Shown here one piece after another: positions 3,066 to 28,333 of a stretch of 64,000 nt of DNA. Numbering within the stretch: position 1 is the first letter of the stretch; each line of letters opens with the position of its first letter. The stretch comes from Acidobacteriota bacterium (GTDB lineage: Bacteria; Acidobacteriota; Terriglobia; UBA7540): contig JAMCXS010000012.1 of the NCBI GenBank assembly GCA_023474345.1, forward strand, positions 1-64,000, given 5' to 3'. The notes below the pieces were generated by a model that saw only the letters and a program-made list of their open reading frames with translations, made no database searches and was not told the DNA's origin. A program made the translations under genes and the position numbers.

Positions 3066-4322
3066 TTACAGCACCGGTTCCTGCCAGTTCTCCAACCTGT
3101 CTTTCAGATAGGCCATGAATTGGTCAGCCACAGCGCCATCGATTACCCTGTGGTCAAAGGTGAGCGCCAGGTAAGCCATGGGCCGAATAGCGATGGCATC
3201 ATTCCGGACCACGGGCCGCTTCTCAATGGCGCCGACTCCCAGGATTGCCACCTGCGGCTGGTGAATGATCGGCGTCCCGAAAAGACTGCCAAAAACGCCT
3301 GGATTCGTCAGAGTAAAGGTGCCTTCCTGCACGTCTTCCACACTCAGCCGCTTTGAGCGCGCCCGGTCGGCGAGGTCCTGGATGGCGCGGGCGATGCCGA
3401 GGAAGTTCTTCTCCTCCGCGTGCTTGATTACCGGCACGATCAATCCGGTTTCGAGCGCGACGGCGATTCCGAAATTGATCGCGCGCTTGTATACAATGTT
3501 CGTGCCTTCAATCGAAGAGTTAAAGATGGGAAAGCACTTGATTGCCTCGATGGCGGCCTGGACAAAGAAAGGCGTGTAGGTCAGCTTCAGGCCTTCGCTA
3601 CGCTCGAATTCCTCCGCCATGCGCTCGCGGACGGTGACGATCTTCGTCATTTCGGCCTCGAACACTGTGGTAACGTGCGCCGAGGTCTTCTTGCTGGCCA
3701 GCATGTGTTCGGCAATCTGGCGGCGGATGGGTGTCATCGGGACAATATGGGTTGGTCCGGTGAACTCAATGTGTTCCGGCGCCGGCCCACGCACAATTGA
3801 AAATCCGGCGGCTTCTGCTGCTATCCCTGCCGGAACCACGACTTCACTTTCAGGCGCAGTTTTTCGAGCCAGGAAGGTGAGAATGTCCTTTTTGCTGATC
3901 CTTCCACCCAAGCCTGTTCCCTGAATGTGGTTTAGGTCCACGTTATGCTCGCGGGCGATGCGCCGCACCAAGGGTGAGGAACGAATCTTCTTGCCGGGAC
4001 GAGGGGTACGCTCAGGTGCCGTCTGGGCTGGCACCTCGGATTCGATCCTTGCCGGACTTGGTTTGGCTTGCGCTTCGGCAGGGCCTTCACGCTCGATAAC
4101 GGCGACCACCGTATTGACTGCTACGGTTTCGTTCTCGGATGCCAGGATCTTTGAGAGAACGCCCGTGGCGGGCGACGGGATTTCCGCATCAACTTTGTCC
4201 GTGGTAATTTCAAACAAGGGTTCGTCGCGCTCAACTCGATCCCCGGCTTTTTTCAGCCACTTAATGATCGTCCCTTCGGCGACGCTTTCCCCCATCTGGG
4301 GCATCACGACATTTGTGGGCAT
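3066..4322 (-). CDS. 2-oxoacid dehydrogenase E2, dihydrolipoyl acyltransferase
   Basis: E2 is the lipoyl-bearing core of a 2-oxoacid dehydrogenase complex and transfers the acyl group from E1 to CoA. With start MPTNVVMPQMGES at 4322 it has 418 aa. A single lipoyl domain covers ~1-77 (ITTDKVDAE, lipoyl Lys43). A peripheral subunit-binding domain follows at ~115-150 (SPLVRRIAREHNVDL, GTGLGGRISKKD), and the catalytic domain carries the C-terminal DHRVIDG motif. An in-frame ATG four codons upstream (4334) is possible, but AGAGGA sits just before 4322. It is the last gene of the operon, about 110 bp after E1beta. Substrate (pyruvate or branched-chain oxoacids) cannot be fixed from sequence; separate E1alpha and E1beta genes fit a PDH or BCDH type. 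Confidence 0.95.
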   Translation of the reverse strand: MPTNVVMPQMGESVAEGTIIKWLKKAGDRVERDEPLFEITTDKVDAEIPSPATGVLSKILASENETVAVNTVVAVIEREGPAEAQAKPSPARIESEVPAQTAPERTPRPGKKIRSSPLVRRIAREHNVDLNHIQGTGLGGRISKKDILTFLARKTAPESEVVVPAGIAAEAAGFSIVRGPAPEHIEFTGPTHIVPMTPIRRQIAEHMLASKKTSAHVTTVFEAEMTKIVTVRERMAEEFERSEGLKLTYTPFFVQAAIEAIKCFPIFNSSIEGTNIVYKRAINFGIAVALETGLIVPVIKHAEEKNFLGIARAIQDLADRARSKRLSVEDVQEGTFTLTNPGVFGSLFGTPIIHQPQVAILGVGAIEKRPVVRNDAIAIRPMAYLALTFDHRVIDGAVADQFMAYLKDRLENWQEPVL

Positions 4323-18186: not shown

Positions 18187-18816
18187 ATGGAAAGTGTACG
18201 TTTGATGGATGTTGCTCTTGATCTCACGGCTCCCGTGAGCAGTGATGAGGCTGCCCTAGTGGCGGAACTCAAAGCTGGTTCCGAAGAGGCCTTCAGGTAT
18301 CTGCTTGCTGTTTATCAGAACCCGGTCTTCAACTTGATTTGCCATATGGTTGGGGATCAGGCTGACGCTCCGGATGTCCTTCAGGATGTTTTCCTTAAGG
18401 TTCTGCGTGGAATCCATCAATTCAACGGGAAAAGCAGTCTTAAAACGTGGATATACCGCATTGCGGTGCATGAGGTCTTGAACCACCGCAGGAGCTGGGG
18501 CCGCCGTGTTTCTCATGAGCTCTTTTCTGTTGACGACGCATCGTCGCAACCAAAAGTCCAGGCTGTGATGCGCGGCAAGGATAGGGAAACACCATACCGT
18601 GTTTACGAGCAGGCCGAGCGCCAGGCCGAGGTCAATCGTGCCTTGGCAAGCCTTGCGCAGCCTTACCGGACGGTGGTGGTGCTCAGGGAAATCGAGGATC
18701 TCAGCTACGAGGAAATCGCCCAGGTCCTTGGAGTCGCCGAGGGCACGGTCAAATCACGCCTGCGGCGCGGGCGGGAGCTCCTAAAACGCAAACTGGCCGC
18801 CCAGATGAGCAGTTAG
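18187..18816 (+). CDS. ECF-type RNA polymerase sigma factor
   Basis: This 209-aa protein is a group 4 sigma-70 factor. Region 2 covers ~25-100 (AFRYLLAVYQNPVFNLICHMVGDQADAPDVLQDVFLKVLRGI, then FNGKSSLKTWIYRIAVHEVLNHRR). Region 4 covers ~140-205 (YRTVVVLREIEDLSYEEIAQVLGVAEGTVKSRLRRGRELLKRKL), including the DNA-binding helix-turn-helix. It has neither region 1.1 nor region 3. Its TAG stop directly abuts the ATG of the anti-sigma gene, so the pair is almost certainly co-transcribed and coupled. Confidence 0.95.
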   Translation: MESVRLMDVALDLTAPVSSDEAALVAELKAGSEEAFRYLLAVYQNPVFNLICHMVGDQADAPDVLQDVFLKVLRGIHQFNGKSSLKTWIYRIAVHEVLNHRRSWGRRVSHELFSVDDASSQPKVQAVMRGKDRETPYRVYEQAERQAEVNRALASLAQPYRTVVVLREIEDLSYEEIAQVLGVAEGTVKSRLRRGRELLKRKLAAQMSS

Positions 18817-19470
18817 ATGATATTCGAGTCTTGCGCGGAAATTCGTAGTTACTTCTCGGATTATTTGGATGGCGCCTGCGAAACGAGAGAGGTGCACGCC
18901 ATCCGCTATCATCTTGCGAACTGCATGGCGTGCTCGAGGGATCTTGAACGCTACCGATCGCTCCGGATGGAACTGCACGGACTGGCGCGGCGGCAGGTTT
19001 CAAGTGACTTGGCACTGCGGTTAAGAGTTCAAGTTTCTCATGAGTTGCACCGGAATGTCACCCAACGCTTTATGACTCGGCTGCAAAATATGTTCCGGCC
19101 AGTGCTGCTTCCTTCCATCGCGGGGCTTCTGGTGGCTCTGGCGTGCATCGGTCTGGTGTTAGGGGCGAACGCGCCTCGCAGCAGCAATATTCCTGATGTC
19201 CCTCTGCAAATCGTCACACCGCCGCGCATCCGGGAACTGGCTCCGATGGACTTTGATATGGGAAGTAGGCCCCTGCTCTTGGAGACCTACGTCAACGCCC
19301 GTGGCGAGGTGACATCTTATAAGGTCCTCTCGGGCCCGCACTCACCCAAGCTTATGAAACACCTCGACCGCATGATGTATTTTAGTCTCTTCTGTCCCGC
19401 AACGGCGTTCGGAGTGCCGACGAACGGCCACCTTTTGCTTTCCTTTCGGCAAATCACGGTCCGAGGTTAA
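18817..19470 (+). CDS. Zinc-finger anti-sigma factor, membrane-bound, with TonB-like C-terminus
   Basis: This 217-aa protein starts immediately after the sigma gene. Residues ~5-55 form a zf-HC2/ZAS domain (CAEIRSYFSDYLDG, then HLANCMAC with the H-x3-C-x2-C zinc site). A membrane helix lies at ~93-112 (LLPSIAGLLVALACIGLVLG). The periplasmic part (~140-217, LLLETYVNARGEVTSYKVLSGP) resembles a TonB C-terminal or energy-transducer fold. The likely role is to hold the ECF sigma factor at the membrane until a periplasmic signal is sensed. Confidence 0.88.
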   Translation: MIFESCAEIRSYFSDYLDGACETREVHAIRYHLANCMACSRDLERYRSLRMELHGLARRQVSSDLALRLRVQVSHELHRNVTQRFMTRLQNMFRPVLLPSIAGLLVALACIGLVLGANAPRSSNIPDVPLQIVTPPRIRELAPMDFDMGSRPLLLETYVNARGEVTSYKVLSGPHSPKLMKHLDRMMYFSLFCPATAFGVPTNGHLLLSFRQITVRG

Positions 19471-19475
19471 CCTGC

Positions 19476-21035
19476 TTGCATTCAAGATTCTTGTTATCCG
19501 GCCTTAGAACGTCGAAAACACGTAAAGGGAAAGGGAAGAGCGGGCTGGCGGGCGGAGGCTCGTTTATTGCCAGCGCTATGCTATTTGTTGTGCTCGCTTT
19601 ACCCCTGCCCACGTGGGCTCAGCAGGGGCAGGTTCTGCTCGAGTCCAACGAACAGCTTTTCTCAGTCCTTGCCGCCCTCAATGCCGCAGGCTATGATACC
19701 GGAATTACCGTTGACACGGGCGACCAAACCCGCGAGGGAGTTCGTGCCGCCCTGGCGAAAGAAAATATCCCGATTCTTCCTGAGATCAGGAAGTTTTACG
19801 AGGCCCACAGAATCCCCGGCCGTCCAGGCGCCGAGCTCGGGCAATACGTTTCCCTTGCCCTGTTCTTGGGACCGCCGCCGGATTTTCATTTCACCATCGC
19901 TCAGACCGATCTTCCTCCGGACGCCAGTGCGGTTGCCGGCCTGGTTCCCCTGCTGACGGTTTTTTACAAGCAGGCAGACTTGATAGATCTTTGGGCCCGC
20001 GCCCAGATCAATTACCGTACCCGGATCGAACAGTACAGTCCGTTGGTGCGTAAAGCCATCGAGCTTACTGATGCTTATCTGCGCTTCCCGGCGGGCGCCT
20101 ACCTGGGCCGGACCTATACCATCTACGTGGACCTTCTCGGCGCGCCGAACCAGGTTCAGGCACGAATCTACGGCTCGAATTACTACCTTGTCATAACTCC
20201 TTCCAAGAAGTTCCCGCTGGATGATATTCGCCACCAGTATCTCCATTTCCTCCTCGATCCGCTGGCGGTGAAGTACGCGCCCCAAATCCACCAAGCCATA
20301 GCGCTGGCCGCGATAGCCCGGAAGGCCCCGGCGCTCAAGAGTGATTTTAAGGAAGATTTTTCATTACTGGTAACCGAGTGCCTCATCCGGGCGGCTGAGC
20401 TGCGAATCGACAAGCTTCCTGAGTTCCAGGCGCGGAAGCGGGTCAACCAGCTAGCCAGTTCGGGGCTGATCCTGGTCCCCTACTTTTACGATGCCCTGGA
20501 GGACTACGAAAAGCAGGAAGCCTCGATGACCGTCTATTACCGGCAGATGATCCAGGGGATTAAACCTCTCCAGGAAGAAGCGCGGCTGGCGAACATCAAA
20601 TTTACGAAGCCGGCCGCGCCAGTGGCAGCGGCTCCGGAAGGCTCGGAGGTTCAGCAGTTACTCGACAAAGGCGACAACGCCATTTATGAGGGCAAGTACG
20701 ACGAGGCGCACACGGCATTCGAACAGGTGATCGCGAAAAATCCGCAGAATTCACGCGCTCTGTTTGGCTTGGCCGTCGTTGCCAGCAACACTCGCAAGCC
20801 TGATATTGCGCGGAAATACTTTGAAGAGACTTTGAAGGCCACACACGATTTGCGCCTGGTGACTTGGTCTCACATTTATCTTGGGCGCATTTATGACCTT
20901 AGCGGCGAGCGTATGCAGGCGCTTGCCCAGTACCGTGCTGCTTCGTTAACCGCGGGGGCGTATCCAGAGGCCCTGCGCGCGGTCGAAAGCGGGCTTAAAA
21001 TACCTTACGGCGCAGAACCACAAGGCCAGAATTGA
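19476..21035 (+). CDS. Exported TPR-repeat protein
   Basis: This 519-aa protein has a TTG start at 19476 with GAGG 9 nt upstream, or alternatively an ATG at 19578 that starts right at the signal peptide. The hydrophobic stretch ending PTWAQQ is a good signal peptidase I site. The central part (~60-370) is unfamiliar: it recalls peptidase-like domains of acidobacterial secreted proteins but shows no HExxH motif. The C-terminal ~120 residues hold TPR repeats (DKGDNAIYEGKYDEAHTAFEQVIAKNP and the next units). It starts 5 bp after the anti-sigma gene and may belong to that operon. Confidence 0.8.
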   Translation: MHSRFLLSGLRTSKTRKGKGKSGLAGGGSFIASAMLFVVLALPLPTWAQQGQVLLESNEQLFSVLAALNAAGYDTGITVDTGDQTREGVRAALAKENIPILPEIRKFYEAHRIPGRPGAELGQYVSLALFLGPPPDFHFTIAQTDLPPDASAVAGLVPLLTVFYKQADLIDLWARAQINYRTRIEQYSPLVRKAIELTDAYLRFPAGAYLGRTYTIYVDLLGAPNQVQARIYGSNYYLVITPSKKFPLDDIRHQYLHFLLDPLAVKYAPQIHQAIALAAIARKAPALKSDFKEDFSLLVTECLIRAAELRIDKLPEFQARKRVNQLASSGLILVPYFYDALEDYEKQEASMTVYYRQMIQGIKPLQEEARLANIKFTKPAAPVAAAPEGSEVQQLLDKGDNAIYEGKYDEAHTAFEQVIAKNPQNSRALFGLAVVASNTRKPDIARKYFEETLKATHDLRLVTWSHIYLGRIYDLSGERMQALAQYRAASLTAGAYPEALRAVESGLKIPYGAEPQGQN

Positions 21036-22256: not shown

Positions 22257-22985
22257 ATGAAACTTGAGAGCGAAATCCGGACTCTTTTTCGTTTATTTTT
22301 TCTCTTTGCTATCCTGGTCACGGTCGCTGTGGTGTCCGCCATTACGACGATTCGTTTGACGGTCCATGGGCGGCAGGAGATTTTGCCCAACTTGGTTGGT
22401 TTGCCGGTCGCCCAAGCCCAGAAGGCCGTGGACGGGTTGGGCCTGAATCTGAAGGTCGAAGACAAACTTTTCAGTACCAAAGTTCCCGCCGGCAGCATCG
22501 TTTCCCAGATGCCTACTGGCGGAACCCACATGAAACCGCTCCAGGATGTTCACGTACTGGTCAGCCTGGGTGCTCCGCAAGTGACAGTTCCCGACGTCAT
22601 TGGGCGGAGCCTGCGCGTGGCGCAGATCACCGCCATTCAACGCGGGTTGAACATTGGAGACGTGGCCGCGCTCTATTGGCCGCAAACCCAGCCGAACGAT
22701 ATTGTGGCTCAGAATCCGCCGCCTTCCGCAACCGATTTGCAGAGCCCCGCCGTCAACTTTCTGGTTTCGCTGGGTGAGAGGCCGCCCGCATACCTCTGCC
22801 CAAGTTTCCAGGGCAAACCGCTTGCAATCGTTGAGGCGGAACTTCAGCAGGCAGGTTTTCAAAACCCGAAGGCTACTCGCGTTCCATCTTCCGGCGCGGC
22901 TCGCGGCGTCATTCTTTCGCAGCAGCCTCCTGCCGGCAGCAGAGTAACTCCCGACACAGTGTTTACGTTTGAAGTTGCCCAGTAG
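22257..22985 (+). CDS. Membrane-anchored protein with three PASTA domains
   Basis: This 242-aa protein starts at MKLESEIRT; a TTG at 22230 would add nine residues. A single membrane helix lies at ~13-36 (FRLFFLFAILVTVAVVSAITTI), and the rest is outside the membrane. Three PASTA domains follow: ~46-110 (ILPNLVGLPVAQAQKAV), ~111-180 (VTVPDVIGRSLRVAQITAIQRG) and ~181-242. Each ends with the typical SQxPxxGxxV pattern. PASTA domains bind peptidoglycan fragments in Ser/Thr kinases and PBPs, but no kinase or transpeptidase domain is attached here. Damaged copies of its 3' end recur downstream. Confidence 0.9.
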   Translation: MKLESEIRTLFRLFFLFAILVTVAVVSAITTIRLTVHGRQEILPNLVGLPVAQAQKAVDGLGLNLKVEDKLFSTKVPAGSIVSQMPTGGTHMKPLQDVHVLVSLGAPQVTVPDVIGRSLRVAQITAIQRGLNIGDVAALYWPQTQPNDIVAQNPPPSATDLQSPAVNFLVSLGERPPAYLCPSFQGKPLAIVEAELQQAGFQNPKATRVPSSGAARGVILSQQPPAGSRVTPDTVFTFEVAQ

Positions 22986-23056
22986 CCTGGAATATTCCGC
23001 TGGTTTTAGCTTATATAACCGACGCGGAAAGTCTCTAGGGCTTTCTTGCAGGAAAA

Positions 23057-23079
23057 GCTCCGTCGGGTTTCGGCGGAGC
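23057..23079 (-). terminator. Terminator of secreted paralog 1
   Basis: GCTCCGTCG (23057-23065) pairs with CGGCGGAGC (23071-23079) around a GGTTT loop, with one G-T wobble. Read on the minus strand it is followed by TTTT. It sits just beyond the stop of the gene at 23108 and in the 3' flank of the convergent PASTA gene, so it may serve both. Confidence 0.75.
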
Positions 23080-23107
23080 CTTCAAGTTTGCGGGAGGGCA
23101 ACGATGC

Positions 23108-23698
23108 CTATGAGCTGGCTTTCTTGCTTACGTGCCGCCGCGGTTCGGCCATTTTTTGAGCTGCATGAACGTAATGTGTAAACGTCCCAACCGTCCCAGC
23201 CACCTGATTGGCATTGTGATAGATGGCGTTGAGGAAGTCGGGATAGTTGGTTAGGGAAAGCGCCATCGTATCTTCTTGGTTTCTCAACATTTGGATTGCA
23301 GCTTCAGTCTGATATACCAGTTCGTGGACGTTTGGAACCATGCGATGCAGAAGCTGCTGCTGCCAGGGATCCAGATCTTTCTTCATTTGAGAAAGTTTCC
23401 AAAGGTCCACGCTCATCTTGTTGACGTGGTCCCTGATCCTGGCCAGTATGGAGGCATGGATCATCCAGGGCAGTTGTTCCCCCTCAACTTGCAGGGGCCC
23501 CACCTCTTTGGTTACTTTCATAGAAAGATTTCGGATTTGATTGATCATCGCCGTGGCCTCTTGCGTATCCGCCAGGTTGGCGGTCGGAGAGGTCAAAGCC
23601 ATCGGCTGCGGGGTTTCAATTGCGAATAAAAGGCCCACCGGCGAGACTAGGGCAAAGGCAAGAAGATATCCAAGAACTCGAAAGCTTTTCGCGCGCAT
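23108..23698 (-). CDS. Small secreted helical protein, array paralog 1
   Basis: This 196-aa protein of unknown function is the first of four related genes. It starts MRAKSFRVLG at 23698, preceded by AAGGAGGT. A signal peptide spans ~1-27 (LLAFALVSPVGLLFAIE). The mature part is predicted mostly helical. Family-wide motifs are SPTANLADT, LDPWQQQLLHRMVPNVHELVYQT and YHNANQVAGTVGTFTHYVHAAQKMAE, ending in a basic KKASS tail. There are no cysteines in the mature part and no recognisable catalytic motif. A periplasmic or surface structural or binding role is possible, but this is inference only. Confidence 0.8.
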   Translation of the reverse strand: MRAKSFRVLGYLLAFALVSPVGLLFAIETPQPMALTSPTANLADTQEATAMINQIRNLSMKVTKEVGPLQVEGEQLPWMIHASILARIRDHVNKMSVDLWKLSQMKKDLDPWQQQLLHRMVPNVHELVYQTEAAIQMLRNQEDTMALSLTNYPDFLNAIYHNANQVAGTVGTFTHYVHAAQKMAEPRRHVSKKASS

Positions 23699-23844
23699 AG
23701 TACCTCCTTTTTTACAGTGAGCTAGCCATGGGTAGCATCTCTGAATATTATGAGCCGCCGCACATCTCACATTTTTACGATGCCCCCGCCGCTCATTCTC
23801 GTTGCTTAAAACGCGTTGGAAACGGAATTTGCTTGGATTCGCGT

Positions 23845-24058
23845 GCCGCGCCGCGTCCTTTTGGGCGCAACGCTAGGCGCAAGGATGCTGCAACTTAAAC
23901 CCCCCAGCTTCCGCGGCCTATTTCTGGAGCCTCGCTGTCAACTGGGTAGCCTCGCCTGCGGTTTTGTCCTCGCGCAACAACCTTATGCCGGCAACAGAGC
24001 AGCGCCCTGCAGAGTTTTTGCGTTTCAGGTTGCCGAGCAGCCTGGAATATCTCACTGG
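23845..24058 (+). pseudogene. Decayed copy of the PASTA gene 3' end, relic 1
   Basis: This stretch aligns by eye with the last ~300 bp of the PASTA gene and its 3' flank. Examples are CGCGCAACAACC, TGCCGGCAACAGAG and GCGTTTCAGGTTGCC, against CGCAGCAGCCTCC, TGCCGGCAGCAGAG and ACGTTTGAAGTTGCC near 22918-22980. CAGCCTGGAATAT follows where the functional gene has TAGCCTGGAATAT. It contains indels and no usable start, and it lies between secreted paralogs 1 and 2. Confidence 0.7.
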
Positions 24059-24106
24059 TCCCAGATTGAGTTGCCCGCGGGTATCGTCAAGGGTTTTGGA
24101 GACGGG

Positions 24107-24135
24107 AAAGCTCCGCCGGCATTCGGCGGAGCTTT
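24107..24135. terminator. Terminator of secreted paralog 2 (bidirectional form)
   Basis: AAAGCTCCGCCG (24107-24118) and CGGCGGAGCTTT (24124-24135) form a perfect 12-bp stem with a 5-nt loop. A-runs and T-runs on both sides make it workable in either direction. It lies 26 bp beyond the stop of the gene at 24161. Confidence 0.85.
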
Positions 24136-24160
24136 CAAGTTTGCGGGAGGGCAACGATGC

Positions 24161-24751
24161 CTATGAGCTGGCTTTCTTGCTTACATGCCGCCGCAGTTCG
24201 GCCATTTTTTGAGCTGCATGAACGTATTGTGTAAAGGTCCCGACATTGTCCACCACCTGATTGGCATTGTGATAGATGGCGTTGATATATCCAGGATAAT
24301 CAGTCAAGGCCAGTGCCGAGCGATTCTGGTGGCTACTGAGCGTTGTGATGGCAGCCTGAGTCTGGTAGATCAGTTCATGGACATTTGGCACCATCTTGCT
24401 GAGGAGTTGTTGCTGCCATGGGTCCAGCTCGGCCTTCATTTGAGACAATCGTGTAAGGCCGCTGCTCATCTTGTTGACTTGGCTCTTGATCCTGGCGAGT
24501 CTCCAGGCATTGATTTCCCAGCTTAATTCTCCCCCCTCAACTACTAAGGGTCCCACCTCTCGCCGTACTTTCAGGGAGAGGTCTTGAATTTTGTTGAAGA
24601 TCGCCGTGGCCTGCTGCGTATCCGCTAAATTGGCGGTCGGAGAGGTCAAAGCCATCGGCTGCGGGGTTTCAATTGAAAATAAAAGACCCACCGGCGAGAT
24701 TAGGGCAAAGGCAAGAAGATATCCAAGAACTCGAAAGCTTTTCGTGTGCAT
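24161..24751 (-). CDS. Small secreted helical protein, array paralog 2
   Basis: This 196-aa paralog starts MHTKSFRVLG at 24751 behind AAAGGAGGT. The signal peptide (LLAFALISPVGLLFSIE) and the SPTANLADTQQAT segment closely match paralog 1. The central helices (LTRLSQMKAELDPWQQQLLSKMVPNVHELIYQT) and the C-terminus (GTFTQYVHAAQKMAELRRHVSKKASS) are very similar. Most differences lie in the region around residues 60-90 and 140-160. It is the same length as paralog 1 and is flanked by its own terminator and a decayed PASTA fragment. Confidence 0.8.
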   Translation of the reverse strand: MHTKSFRVLGYLLAFALISPVGLLFSIETPQPMALTSPTANLADTQQATAIFNKIQDLSLKVRREVGPLVVEGGELSWEINAWRLARIKSQVNKMSSGLTRLSQMKAELDPWQQQLLSKMVPNVHELIYQTQAAITTLSSHQNRSALALTDYPGYINAIYHNANQVVDNVGTFTQYVHAAQKMAELRRHVSKKASS

Positions 24752-24894
24752 AGTACCTCCTTTCGATAGTGAGCTAGCCATGGGTAGCATCTCTAGGTCT
24801 TGCGTGCCGCCACACATCTCACACTTTTACGATGCACCCGGTGCTCATTGCCGTTGCTTAAAACGCCTATAGGAGCGGAATTGCATGGATTCGT

Positions 24895-24995
24895 GCTGCG
24901 CCGCGTCCTTTGGCCGCAGCGCCAGGCGCAACGATGTAGCGGCTCAAGGTCCCAGCTTCCGCAGCCTATTTACGGAGCCTCGCTGTCAACCGATT
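24895..24995 (+). pseudogene. Decayed copy of PASTA gene internal part, relic 2
   Basis: Bases such as CGCGTCCTTTGGCCGCAG, CAGCTTCCGCAGCC and GGAGCCTCGCTGTCAAC correspond to the PASTA coding segment near 22668-22760 (CGCGCTCTATTGGCCGCA, CCTTCCGCAACC, AGAGCCCCGCCGTCAAC). The final part of the gene, still visible in relics 1 and 3, is missing here. It lies between paralogs 2 and 3. Confidence 0.6.
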
Positions 24996-25030
24996 CGCCG
25001 GTGAGTATGATCATGATTTTTTAGGCGGGC

Positions 25031-25057
25031 AAGCTCCGCCGGGTTTCGGCGGAGCTT
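25031..25057. terminator. Terminator of secreted paralog 3
   Basis: AAGCTCCGCCG (25031-25041) and CGGCGGAGCTT (25047-25057) form a perfect 11-bp stem around GGTTT, with T on the plus side and A on the other. It is the same hairpin as those after paralogs 2 and 4. Confidence 0.85.
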
Positions 25058-25083
25058 TTAAGTTGAAGGTAGGGATGCCAAAT

Positions 25084-25674
25084 CTACGTGCTAGCCTTTG
25101 TACTTGTCTGTTCCTTCAGTTCGGCCATTTCTTGAGCCGCGTGAGTGTAATTTGTAAACGCTCCAACTTAGCCGACCAACTGGTTGGCGTTGTGATAAAT
25201 GACGCTATAGTTGGCTTTACTCATCGCCGCCATCGTGTACCGTTGGTAGTGGCGCCTATTGAGCCTTTGGATTACAGCCTGCGTCTGGTAGACTAGTTCG
25301 TGAACATCCGGGGTTATGCGACGCAGAAGCTGTTGCTGCTGCGGATCCAAGTTTTCCCTCATTTGCGAGAGTTTCCAAAGGTCCTTGCTCATCTTGTTGA
25401 CGTGGTCCTTGATCCTGGTAAGTATGAAGGCTTGGGTCCTCCAAGCTAGGTGTCCGCCTTGAAATTGCAGGGGACCTACCTGGTTTCTTACTTTCAGAGC
25501 AAGGACTTGAATTCGGTTGAAAATCGCTGAGGCTTCTTGCCGATCTGCCAAGTTTGCGGTCGGTGAGGTTAAAGCGACCGGCCGCGGGGTTTCAATTGAA
25601 AATAAGAGACCTACCGGCGAGATTAGGGCAAAGGCGAGAAGCGATCCAAGGACTTGAAAGATTTTTGAACGCAT
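25084..25674 (-). pseudogene. Small secreted helical protein, array paralog 3, with premature stop
   Basis: The frame starts MRSKIFQVLG at 25674, behind AAGGAGGT, with the family signal peptide and motifs (SPTANLADRQEAS, LDPQQQQLLRRITPDVHELVYQTQA). A TAA at 25168-25170 stops it after NANQLVG at 168 aa. Beyond that stop the same frame continues for 27 codons with the conserved family C-terminus (VGAFTNYTHAAQEMAELK ... TSTKAS) to TAG at 25084. This is a single nonsense change in an otherwise well-kept gene, so the loss is recent or the shorter product is still made. Confidence 0.8.
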
Positions 25675-25814
25675 AATACCTCCTTTTCTTACAGTGAGTT
25701 AATTAGATGCAGCACTTTCAAACCTCATGTGATGCCCCGTAACCCACACTTTTACGATGCACCCGGCGCTCGTCGTCGTTGCTTAAAACGCGTTAGGAGT
25801 GGAATTGCATGGAT

Positions 25815-26025
25815 TCGCGTGCTGCGCCGCCTCCTTTGGGCGCAGCGCCAGGCGCAACGATGGTGCGGTTCAAATCTTCAGCTTCCGCAGCCCATTTACA
25901 GAGCCTTGCTGTCCATTGGCTAGTCTCGCCTTCTAGTGGACGGGTTCATCTATGCGCAACAACCTTACACCGGCAAAAGGGCAGCGTCCTACACAGTTTC
26001 TGTATTTCAGGTTGCCGAGCCGTCC
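25815..26025 (+). pseudogene. Decayed copy of the PASTA gene 3' end, relic 3
   Basis: This is the third relic, between paralogs 3 and 4. TGCGCAACAACCTTACACC, ACACAGTTTCTGTATTTCAG and GTTGCCGAGC line up with the last codons of the PASTA gene (CGCAGCAGCCTCCTGCC, ACACAGTGTTTACGTTTGAA, GTTGCCCAGT). The upstream half (CTCCTTTGGGCGCAG, TCAGCTTCCGCAGCCC, GAGCCTTGCTGTCCA) also matches. Frameshifts and substitutions abolish coding. Confidence 0.65.
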
Positions 26026-26088
26026 GCATGCTCCGCCGGCTTCAAATCCAGTCGCCGGCGGGTATGACCATGATTTCTTTAGGCGGGT

Positions 26089-26115
26089 AAGCTCCGCCGG
26101 GTCTCGGCGGAGCTT
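26089..26115. terminator. Terminator of secreted paralog 4
   Basis: AAGCTCCGCCG (26089-26099) and CGGCGGAGCTT (26105-26115) form a perfect 11-bp stem with a 5-nt loop, followed by TTG on the plus strand. It lies 26 bp beyond the stop of the gene at 26142. Confidence 0.85.
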
Positions 26116-26141
26116 TTGTGTTGACGGTAGGGATGCCAGGC

Positions 26142-26738
26142 CTACGAGGTGGCCTTTGTGCTTGTCTGTTTCTGTAGTGCAGCCATTTGTTGAGCTGCGT
26201 GCACGTAGTGTGTGAACGTTCCAACTGAGCCAAACAACCGGCTGGCATTCTGATAGATGGCCTTATAGTTGCCAAAGCTAATCTGCGCCAACGTAATTCG
26301 CTGGTATTTCTGGTGGTTCAGGGCCTTGATTGCAGCCGCAGTCTGATAGACCATTTCATGGACTTCCGGGGTCATGCGACGCAGAAGCTGTTGCTGCCAC
26401 GGTTCCAGCTTTTTCTTCATTTGCGCCAGTTTCCAAAGGTCCAGGCTCATCTCGTTGACGCGGTCCCTGACTCGATTTAGTGCGGAGGAATGTGCCCACC
26501 AACTTAGCTGTCTCCCTTGAAATTCCAGGGGAGCAATCTCTCTTCGTACTTTCAGAGCAAGATACCGAACGTTGTTGAACACCGACGAGGCCCCTTCCGT
26601 ATCTGCCCAGTTTGCAGTCGGGGAATTAGTAATGATCGGCATGGTAGGACGGGCCTCGATTCCAAATAACAGCCCTACCGGCGAGATTAGAGCTACCGCA
26701 AGAAGCGATCCAAGTACTTTTAAGATTTTAGCACGCAT
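26142..26738 (-). CDS. Small secreted helical protein, array paralog 4
   Basis: This 198-aa protein is the most divergent array member. It starts MRAKILKVLGSLL at 26738 behind AAAGGAGA. The signal peptide (LLAVALISPVGLLFGIE) is kept, followed by SPTANWADTEGAS. The hallmark core LEPWQQQLLRRMTPEVHEMVYQTAAAI and the end GSVGTFTHYVHAAQQMAALQKQTSTKATS are clear. It lies furthest from the PASTA gene. No function can be assigned. The 5' flank carries the same conserved block as the other three (GCATCGTAAAA near 26817-26830 on the minus strand). Confidence 0.8.
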   Translation of the reverse strand: MRAKILKVLGSLLAVALISPVGLLFGIEARPTMPIITNSPTANWADTEGASSVFNNVRYLALKVRREIAPLEFQGRQLSWWAHSSALNRVRDRVNEMSLDLWKLAQMKKKLEPWQQQLLRRMTPEVHEMVYQTAAAIKALNHQKYQRITLAQISFGNYKAIYQNASRLFGSVGTFTHYVHAAQQMAALQKQTSTKATS

Positions 26739-26927
26739 AGAATCTCCTTTCCTTGCAGTGAGTTAACCGCAGGCGCCACCTGCAAATCTTATGTGGTGTT
26801 GCCCCATAACCCACACTTTTACGATGCCCCCGCCGTTTGTTCTTGTTGCTTGAAAACCAGCAGGGGTAAAACAGACGGAATTTGTTCGGGTTAGCGTGCG
26901 GTTGCCGGCATCAATATGGGCCGCTAA

Positions 26928-28280
26928 TCAAGGCAGGCTGGCAAAGGGAAGCAGAAGAGGTTTTTGGACAAGGAAAGGCAGACGTGCAATTTCGGCAACA
27001 GCCTTTCGCACGGCGCGCTCTTCGACAGGCTCAAGCGTCATCACGAAGGGTAGATGATTCTTGGGCATTCCCGGTTCCTGGAGCACGGAGTCGATATTGA
27101 TCCGGTGGCGAGCCAGAATGTTGCACACGCGGGCGAGAATGCCGGGACGGTCGCGCACGACCAGGCGGAGATAGGAAGTGACAATATTTTCTTCCGTGGA
27201 AGTTCTTTTTGCCGCGTGCCATTCAGAATAGCCGAGCGGAGTACTGCCCACGCCGCCTCCGGCCATCGCGCGCGCAATCTCCACAACGTCGGAAAGGACG
27301 GCCACGCCCGTAGGTTCACCGCCCGCGCCACGCCCGGTCAGCGTGGTAGTTCCTCCCTTATTGCCGACCAGCAGGATGCCGTTGGTGCTGCCCCGGATGC
27401 CGGCAAGCTGCGAGGATTGTGGGATCATGGTCGGCTGCACGGTGATTTCCAGCCGGTCGCCCTGGAGCTTGCGCGCCGCCGCAATCAGCCGGATGGTGCG
27501 GGCAAGCCGGTGCGCGTACGCGAAATCGACCTGTTCAATCCGGGTGATTCCCTCGGCCGGGATATCCCGGACCCGCACCGTCTGCCCGAAGCACACCATG
27601 GCCAGGATGGCAATTTTGTACCGGGCGTCAAACCCTTCCACGTCGAAGGTCGGGTCAGGCTCGGCGTAACCAAGTTCCTGCGCCTTGGCGAGGGCATCGG
27701 CAAAGGAAGTGCCGTGTTGTTCCATCTCGGTCAGGATGTAATTGGTCGTGCCGTTCAGAATTCCGTACACCGCCGCAAAGCTTTCTCCCGCCAGTCCCGC
27801 GCGAATCGCATGAAGGATCGGAGTCCCTCCGGCCACGCAGGCTTCGATTCCCAATTTCACGCCCTTGGCGCGGCTGCGCTCGGCCAGTTCAATCCCGTAC
27901 TCCGCCACAAGCTGCTTATTGGCGGTCACCAGGTGCTTGCCGGCCGCTATCGCCGCAAAAGCAATCGCGCGGGCCGTCTTGAGTTCACCCACCAGTTCGA
28001 TCACGGCGTCTACGTCCGGGTCATTTACCACGTTTTTCCAGTCGGAAGTGGTTTCCACCCGGCCGCGCAGCCAGGATAGGTCGCGCTGCTGGATCGTGCG
28101 CGAGCAGACCACCTTCAACTCCAGCTTGCACCCCAGCCTCCGCTCGATCTCCTGCCGGTGCTCTTGCAATACCTTTGCTGTCCCGGTTCCTACCGTTCCC
28201 AGGCCGACCATCCCCAAGCGCACCACTTTGGCCCCGCCTGCTTCCGGCCTGTAGCCCCGTGTTTTGGCGTCCTTGCTCAT
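26928..28280 (-). CDS. hom: Homoserine dehydrogenase
   Basis: This enzyme reduces aspartate semialdehyde to homoserine in the threonine/methionine branch. Started at MSKDAKTRG (28280, behind AAGGGA) it has 450 aa. The NAD(P) motif GMVGLGTVGTG, the catalytic-domain segments KHLVTANKQLVAEYG, GGTPILHAIRAGLAG and LNGTTNYILTEM, and YAEPDPTFDVEGFDA are all present. A C-terminal ACT domain (~365-440, RDRPGILARVCNILARHRINIDSVLQE) suggests feedback control by an amino acid, usually threonine. An upstream ATG (28322) is open but has no ribosome site. Confidence 0.96.
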   Translation of the reverse strand: MSKDAKTRGYRPEAGGAKVVRLGMVGLGTVGTGTAKVLQEHRQEIERRLGCKLELKVVCSRTIQQRDLSWLRGRVETTSDWKNVVNDPDVDAVIELVGELKTARAIAFAAIAAGKHLVTANKQLVAEYGIELAERSRAKGVKLGIEACVAGGTPILHAIRAGLAGESFAAVYGILNGTTNYILTEMEQHGTSFADALAKAQELGYAEPDPTFDVEGFDARYKIAILAMVCFGQTVRVRDIPAEGITRIEQVDFAYAHRLARTIRLIAAARKLQGDRLEITVQPTMIPQSSQLAGIRGSTNGILLVGNKGGTTTLTGRGAGGEPTGVAVLSDVVEIARAMAGGGVGSTPLGYSEWHAAKRTSTEENIVTSYLRLVVRDRPGILARVCNILARHRINIDSVLQEPGMPKNHLPFVMTLEPVEERAVRKAVAEIARLPFLVQKPLLLPFASLP

Positions 28281-28333
28281 GCGTCGATTCCCTTGTGGCG
28301 GCCCGTAACCTCCTGCGCGCACAATGAATTATC

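Follow-up and report, generated by a model that had tools for sequence, protein, structure and literature searches.

The question raised by this locus is how four copies of a gene for a small, apparently exported helical protein came to lie side by side in an Acidobacteriota genome, and what that protein may do. The window, that is, the whole stretch of 64,000 nucleotides that was analysed, carries four paralogues in tandem on the minus strand at 23108-26738, arranged as head-to-tail units between a plus-strand PASTA-domain gene, which ends at 22985, and the minus-strand homoserine dehydrogenase gene hom, which ends at 26928 (Table 1). The units are spaced by 1053, 923, and 1058 nt. The original prediction had described a four-gene array with the same parts in every unit, a terminator hairpin, a gene, and a 5' block, and both the array and the shared parts were recovered, the latter in all four units. 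The hairpins 3' of the copies have z values between -3.5 and -6.7, and an equivalent hairpin is present in the genus-mate G001. A gene of about 196 codons for a predicted secreted protein was found in the units of g1, g2, and g4, but not in that of g3. Protein identity to g1 declines from g2 (Table 1) to 62% in g3 and 56% in g4. The homologous frame of g3 would run on to about 195 residues (25084), but is cut by an in-frame TAA, which removes about half of the predicted helix 4; g3 is also the sole copy of the four whose PWQQ motif has lost its W, and is probably decaying.

Table 1. Coordinates of the array, its parts, and its borders in the window
Feature	Position	Strand	Remarks
PASTA-domain gene, intact	22257..22985	+	Pfam PASTA 2.3e-29, three stretches; 3' end copied with the unit
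Hairpin 3' of g1	23053..23083	-	between g1 and the PASTA stop
g1 (copy 1)	23108..23698	-	predicted exported helical protein, 196 aa
Promoter-like element of g1	23779..23805	-	GCAAC-N17-GCATC, 80 nt before ATG
PASTA remnant a, 3' of g2	23860..24040	+	matches 22676-22770 and 22903-22985; internal deletion of about 130 nt; stop codon lost
Hairpin 3' of g2	24106..24135	-	
g2 (copy 2)	24161..24751	-	196 aa, 73% identity to g1
Promoter-like element of g2	24831..24857	-	
PASTA remnant b, 3' of g3	24910..24990	+	matches 22676-22757 only; larger deletion
Hairpin 3' of g3	25031..25058	-	
g3 (copy 3)	25084..25674	-	TAA at codon 169; ORF 25168-25674, 168 aa
Promoter-like element of g3	25756..25782	-	
PASTA remnant c, 3' of g4	25836..26024	+	matches 22676-22770 and 22903-22985; frameshift, and internal deletion as in remnant a
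Hairpin 3' of g4	26089..26117	-	
g4 (copy 4)	26142..26738	-	198 aa, adjoins hom
Promoter-like element of g4	26823..26849	-	
hom, homoserine dehydrogenase	26928..28322	-	Pfam 3.2e-58; far border of the conserved interval

Scans against Pfam and NCBIfam gave no applicable family, the weak matches being to scattered coiled-coil types, and a PDB sequence search returned no credible relative. An AlphaFold2 model built from seven sequences (mean pLDDT 71, pTM 0.65, most of the bundle at 79-93) begins with a signal helix, followed by long helices at 38-72, 78-108, 111-143, and 152-184 that together form a bundle of four. Foldseek recovered generic bundles only, including designed ones, all with E > 0.001 and none significant. 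The conserved core comprises W78, N93, PWQQ at 111-114, and P122. The anatomy of the signal peptide, judged by eye from alignments of the window copies and their close orthologues, shows a basic N-end, a hydrophobic core, and a small residue (A, S, or G) at the likely cleavage point, between LF[ASG] and I, and the protein would, on this anatomy, be exported to the periplasm.

PASTA sequence was found in all three gaps between units, with alignment scores that were reached by none of 400 dinucleotide shuffles, the gap between g4 and hom serving as the negative control. The PASTA pieces originally noticed in these gaps are thus not chance-level matches, and their presence in every one of the three supports the proposal that the duplicated module extended into the 3' end of the PASTA gene. 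Each remnant lies to the left (3') of g2, g3, or g4 and is convergent with it, as is the intact PASTA gene with respect to g1. A one-base insertion, seen as a frameshift in alignments and reading frames, is common to the remnants, and remnants a and c also share the deletion of about 130 nt; the remnants therefore descend from one fragment, which was already decaying before the later copies arose. The accompanying idea that the secreted genes were kept while the PASTA pieces decayed is right as to the PASTA pieces and the coding copies, which are constrained (Ka/Ks 0.30-0.47), but does not extend to the broken g3. The PASTA gene is present once in 35 of the 39 genomes of the taxonomic family, and in at least nine genomes it is directly adjacent to hom by coordinates, with an empty interval (G011, G028, G007, G032, G023, G013, G017, G005, and G021). 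On account of this empty interval and of the other neighbours of dispersed relatives, a functional tie to PASTA is not supported and was rejected; the link is incidental and the fragments are hitch-hikers.

Across genomes, copy number in the PASTA-hom interval ranges from none to four. In G001 (L032), the one genus-mate genome compared, a single copy with 64% identity to g1 occupies the interval, and the flanks (sigma - anti-sigma - TPR - folP) are conserved. One copy each was found there in G024 and G029 and three in G004, while in G020 one copy adjoins hom. Near 3348-3360 the hom gene of G001 (L032:2536-3914) breaks into two reading frames, which probably reflects either a frameshift or a sequencing error in the MAG. 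The family as a whole occurs in 17 of the 39 genomes of the taxonomic family and, when a typical member is used as the query, in 59 of the 399 genomes of the class; homologues searched for across Acidobacteriota are therefore present beyond the strain, in other genera, and a strain-specific orphan is ruled out. The first phylum-wide profile search, which scored few candidates per genome, had matched two genomes, a false low. A search of viral contigs and plasmids gave no match to the family. Tandem pairs or triples also occur elsewhere, in G004, G030, G017, and G469, and since the sets of G004 and G030 form their own clades in the tree, tandem duplication has recurred.

The codon tree separates the four window copies from the G001 gene with a support of 91, the protein trees being weaker. 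Synonymous divergence (dS) among the copies is 0.58-1.18, similar to the 0.76-1.03 of flanking orthologues compared with the genus-mate, which suggests that the array dates from roughly the time of the split from that genus-mate. Since gene conversion has acted and the dS values of the copies come so close to the genus-mate distance, the duplications may also predate the split, G001 having then collapsed to one copy. Ka/Ks between the four genes was 0.30-0.47 (NG86), not near 1, and the copies are under purifying selection; with 0.10-0.17 in the flanking genes, constraint on the copies is 2-4 times looser than on their neighbours. The highest values belong to the g3-g4 pair, at 0.47-0.56 (NG86, ML) and up to 0.63 (YN00). 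Between g1 and g2, dS is as low as 0.07 in the signal-peptide segment and as high as 0.98 in helix 1, and the runs of shared sites exceed the permutation expectation (0 of 5000). On this evidence the copies are mosaic through gene conversion. No segments with dN clearly above dS were found among the copies, and of the selection for copy number or diversity that had been suggested, the diversity part falls away, the heterogeneity fitting gene conversion; selection for copy number is no more than hinted at, by the independent arrays of other genera.

Clues to function come from a stress-linked subclade in other taxonomic families, whose proteins are about 21-30% identical to those of the window. 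The neighbour survey covered the 1.5 kb flanks of 28 loci of this subclade, taken as the best-scoring ones, and the test was framed after the neighbours had been seen. Usp genes occur at 5 of these loci, where about 0.2 would be expected (P about 4e-6), and YfdX genes at 3, against an expectation of about 0.006 (P about 4e-8); two of the three YfdX genes were identified through the genome search. The expectations derive from genome-wide counts over 125 Mb, in which Usp domains numbered 291 and YfdX matches 8. BON is found at 2 loci, and Ysc84, ferritin/Dps-type, DUF308 (HdeD-type), and YtxH genes at one each. Neither the window array nor its closest orthologues have stress genes beside them. 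A fifth, distant member lies on another contig of the same genome (G000:C17:79848-80393 = L044:7843-8397); it has 44% identity to a G030 protein and is nearer to the stress-linked subclade than to the array. Because relatives adjoin stress genes far beyond chance, the family protein may be an exported envelope-stress protein, a reading held tentatively, at somewhat less than even confidence, which reaches the window copies through homology at that low identity and through neighbour association.

Several known systems bear comparison. YfdX reportedly acts in the periplasm as a chaperone under acid stress (PMC6394985), and has also been reported as part of heat-resistance islands (PMC8067161). 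The YfdX (PF10938) and Hde acid-stress chaperones are, like the family, small and helical with a signal peptide, and YfdX genes are direct neighbours of family relatives in three genomes. They are neighbours rather than homologues, however, as the motifs differ, and YfdX was absent from the first 25 Pfam families listed for the 24 family members scanned. Spy and CpxP (LTXXQ) are likewise exported, small, all-helical envelope-stress proteins, but the family is predicted to form a long four-helix bundle, and no LTXXQ-family Pfam match was listed for the window genes or the 24 members. The sensor domains of Tar and PcaY_PP share an up-down helical bundle with the predicted model, but the fold match is non-significant, the family is without a transmembrane or signalling domain, and no significant profile or fold match to a 4HB_MCP-type sensor domain was obtained. 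With known tandem paralogue arrays shaped by unequal recombination and gene conversion, which also show head-to-tail units, mosaics, a decaying member, and captured fragments of neighbours, the window array has no difference in principle.

All four window copies carry the box GCAAC-N17-GCATC 79-84 nt before the ATG. Boxes with N15-17 lie at 71-84 nt in orthologues from G001, G028, G007, G020, and G004, with proteins down to about 30% identity. The exact box, with N16 or N17, is present in 9 of the 13 clade members scanned, always 71-84 nt before the ATG, and weaker versions occur at 79-81 nt in two more (G024 and G029). It was undetectable in the clade member G004a, in most other paralogues or other families, and in the stress-linked subclade. 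Because it is conserved within the subclade and mostly not detectable outside, the box is read as promoter-like and subclade-specific. With its -35-like GCAAC and -10-like GCATC it resembles an ECF-sigma-type promoter and has the features expected of one: an AAC-containing -35-like and a -10-like element about 16 nt apart, a fixed distance, and conservation. In its own genome, the exact box has 18 matches outside the array, compared with 7 for a reversed control; in a regulon search of that genome, the matches examined were mostly inside coding sequence and none was tied to a plausible promoter. A further trait expected of an ECF-sigma promoter, occurrence of the box before a sigma gene or a set of co-regulated genes, was not found. 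A conserved block of ECF-type sigma, anti-sigma-like, and TPR genes, shared with the genus-mate, adjoins the array (18187-21035) and is a candidate regulator of the GCAAC-GCATC box. Other upstream motifs were seen in relatives. At L033-L037 a second motif, roughly GTTAACTAAACAGT, lies some 160-190 nt ahead of the family gene, in orthologues from genomes labelled g7 and g11, and is not present in the window copies. In another subclade (L040, L041, L043, and L048) a motif like CATCGAAACTTTCTACTTTTCTAA lies upstream of the family gene; in two genomes this gene and one for a LysR-like regulator are divergently oriented, and the two may form a pair of regulator and target.

The best explanation joins a history of the array, which is well supported, to a function drawn by association. 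The ancestor would have been a single gene for an exported four-helix bundle that had hom just upstream of it and met the PASTA gene tail-to-tail. A first tandem duplication would have taken along the last 0.3 kb or so of the PASTA gene, and this fragment would have decayed, acquiring the shared frameshift and deletion. Recombination between repeats would then have produced more units, each of PASTA fragment, terminator, gene, and 5' element, while gene conversion mixed the copies, leaving three intact and constrained and one truncated. Each copy would be transcribed singly from its own upstream element, and the product may be an abundant envelope-stress protein in the periplasm, perhaps an acid-stress chaperone comparable to YfdX or HdeA, of which extra copies would give a higher dosage. 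Taken whole, history together with a dosage-amplified exported envelope-stress protein, this explanation is given a little less than an even chance. Against it, the stress neighbours belong to another subclade and not to the window copies, known chaperones matched the family neither in sequence nor significantly in fold, the missing GCAAC-GCATC element in the stress-linked subclade means that regulation need not be shared, and the decay of g3 speaks against strong selection for four copies. A wider proposal is doubtful: that exported four-helix-bundle envelope-stress (acid) chaperones form an undescribed family widespread in the class, and that one of its subclades gained an ECF-type promoter of its own and was expanded in the PASTA-hom interval to raise dosage.

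Of the alternatives, neutral tandem amplification, in which a lightly constrained gene for an exported protein was duplicated by chance and its copies are being lost, g3 first, with no adaptive value, is somewhat unlikely. The nonsense codon of g3, the high Ka/Ks of g3-g4, the looser constraint (2-4 times) than in the neighbours, and the range from none to four copies at the same interval would all suit it, but three copies have stayed open and constrained despite a synonymous divergence of 0.5-1.2 per site, every copy retains its export signal, its hairpin, and its upstream element, and independent tandem arrays exist in other genera. That the protein binds or scavenges a small ligand, its modelled bundle being like the periplasmic sensor domains of chemoreceptors, is quite improbable: the top Foldseek matches do include the ligand-binding domains of PcaY_PP and Tar and a histidine-kinase sensor, but none of these hits to generic four-helix bundles, designed ones among them, passed E 0.001, and no kinase or chemoreceptor partner is linked. 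A diversifying surface or secreted array, its copies kept for variation in interactions with rivals, phages, or hosts, could be suspected from the mature domains of g1 and g2, which differ more than their signal peptides and flanks. It is very unlikely, as dN and dS climb together in the divergent segments, a pattern that conversion explains, dN is nowhere clearly above dS, and the search of defence families gave no convincing match.

The locus had been singled out as a candidate for an undescribed system; it is instead an expansion of a one-gene family, not a multi-part system, and the duplication process itself is ordinary. The only new element is the uncharacterised family, which is widespread in the class yet has no Pfam or NCBIfam model, and the interest lies in its link to stress. 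The passenger PASTA fragments preserve with unusual clarity the steps by which a tandem array grew in a bacterium. If the stress-protein reading is true, an unlisted family would explain part of the envelope protection of acidobacteria, which are abundant soil bacteria, and the array would amount to an experiment of nature in copy number.
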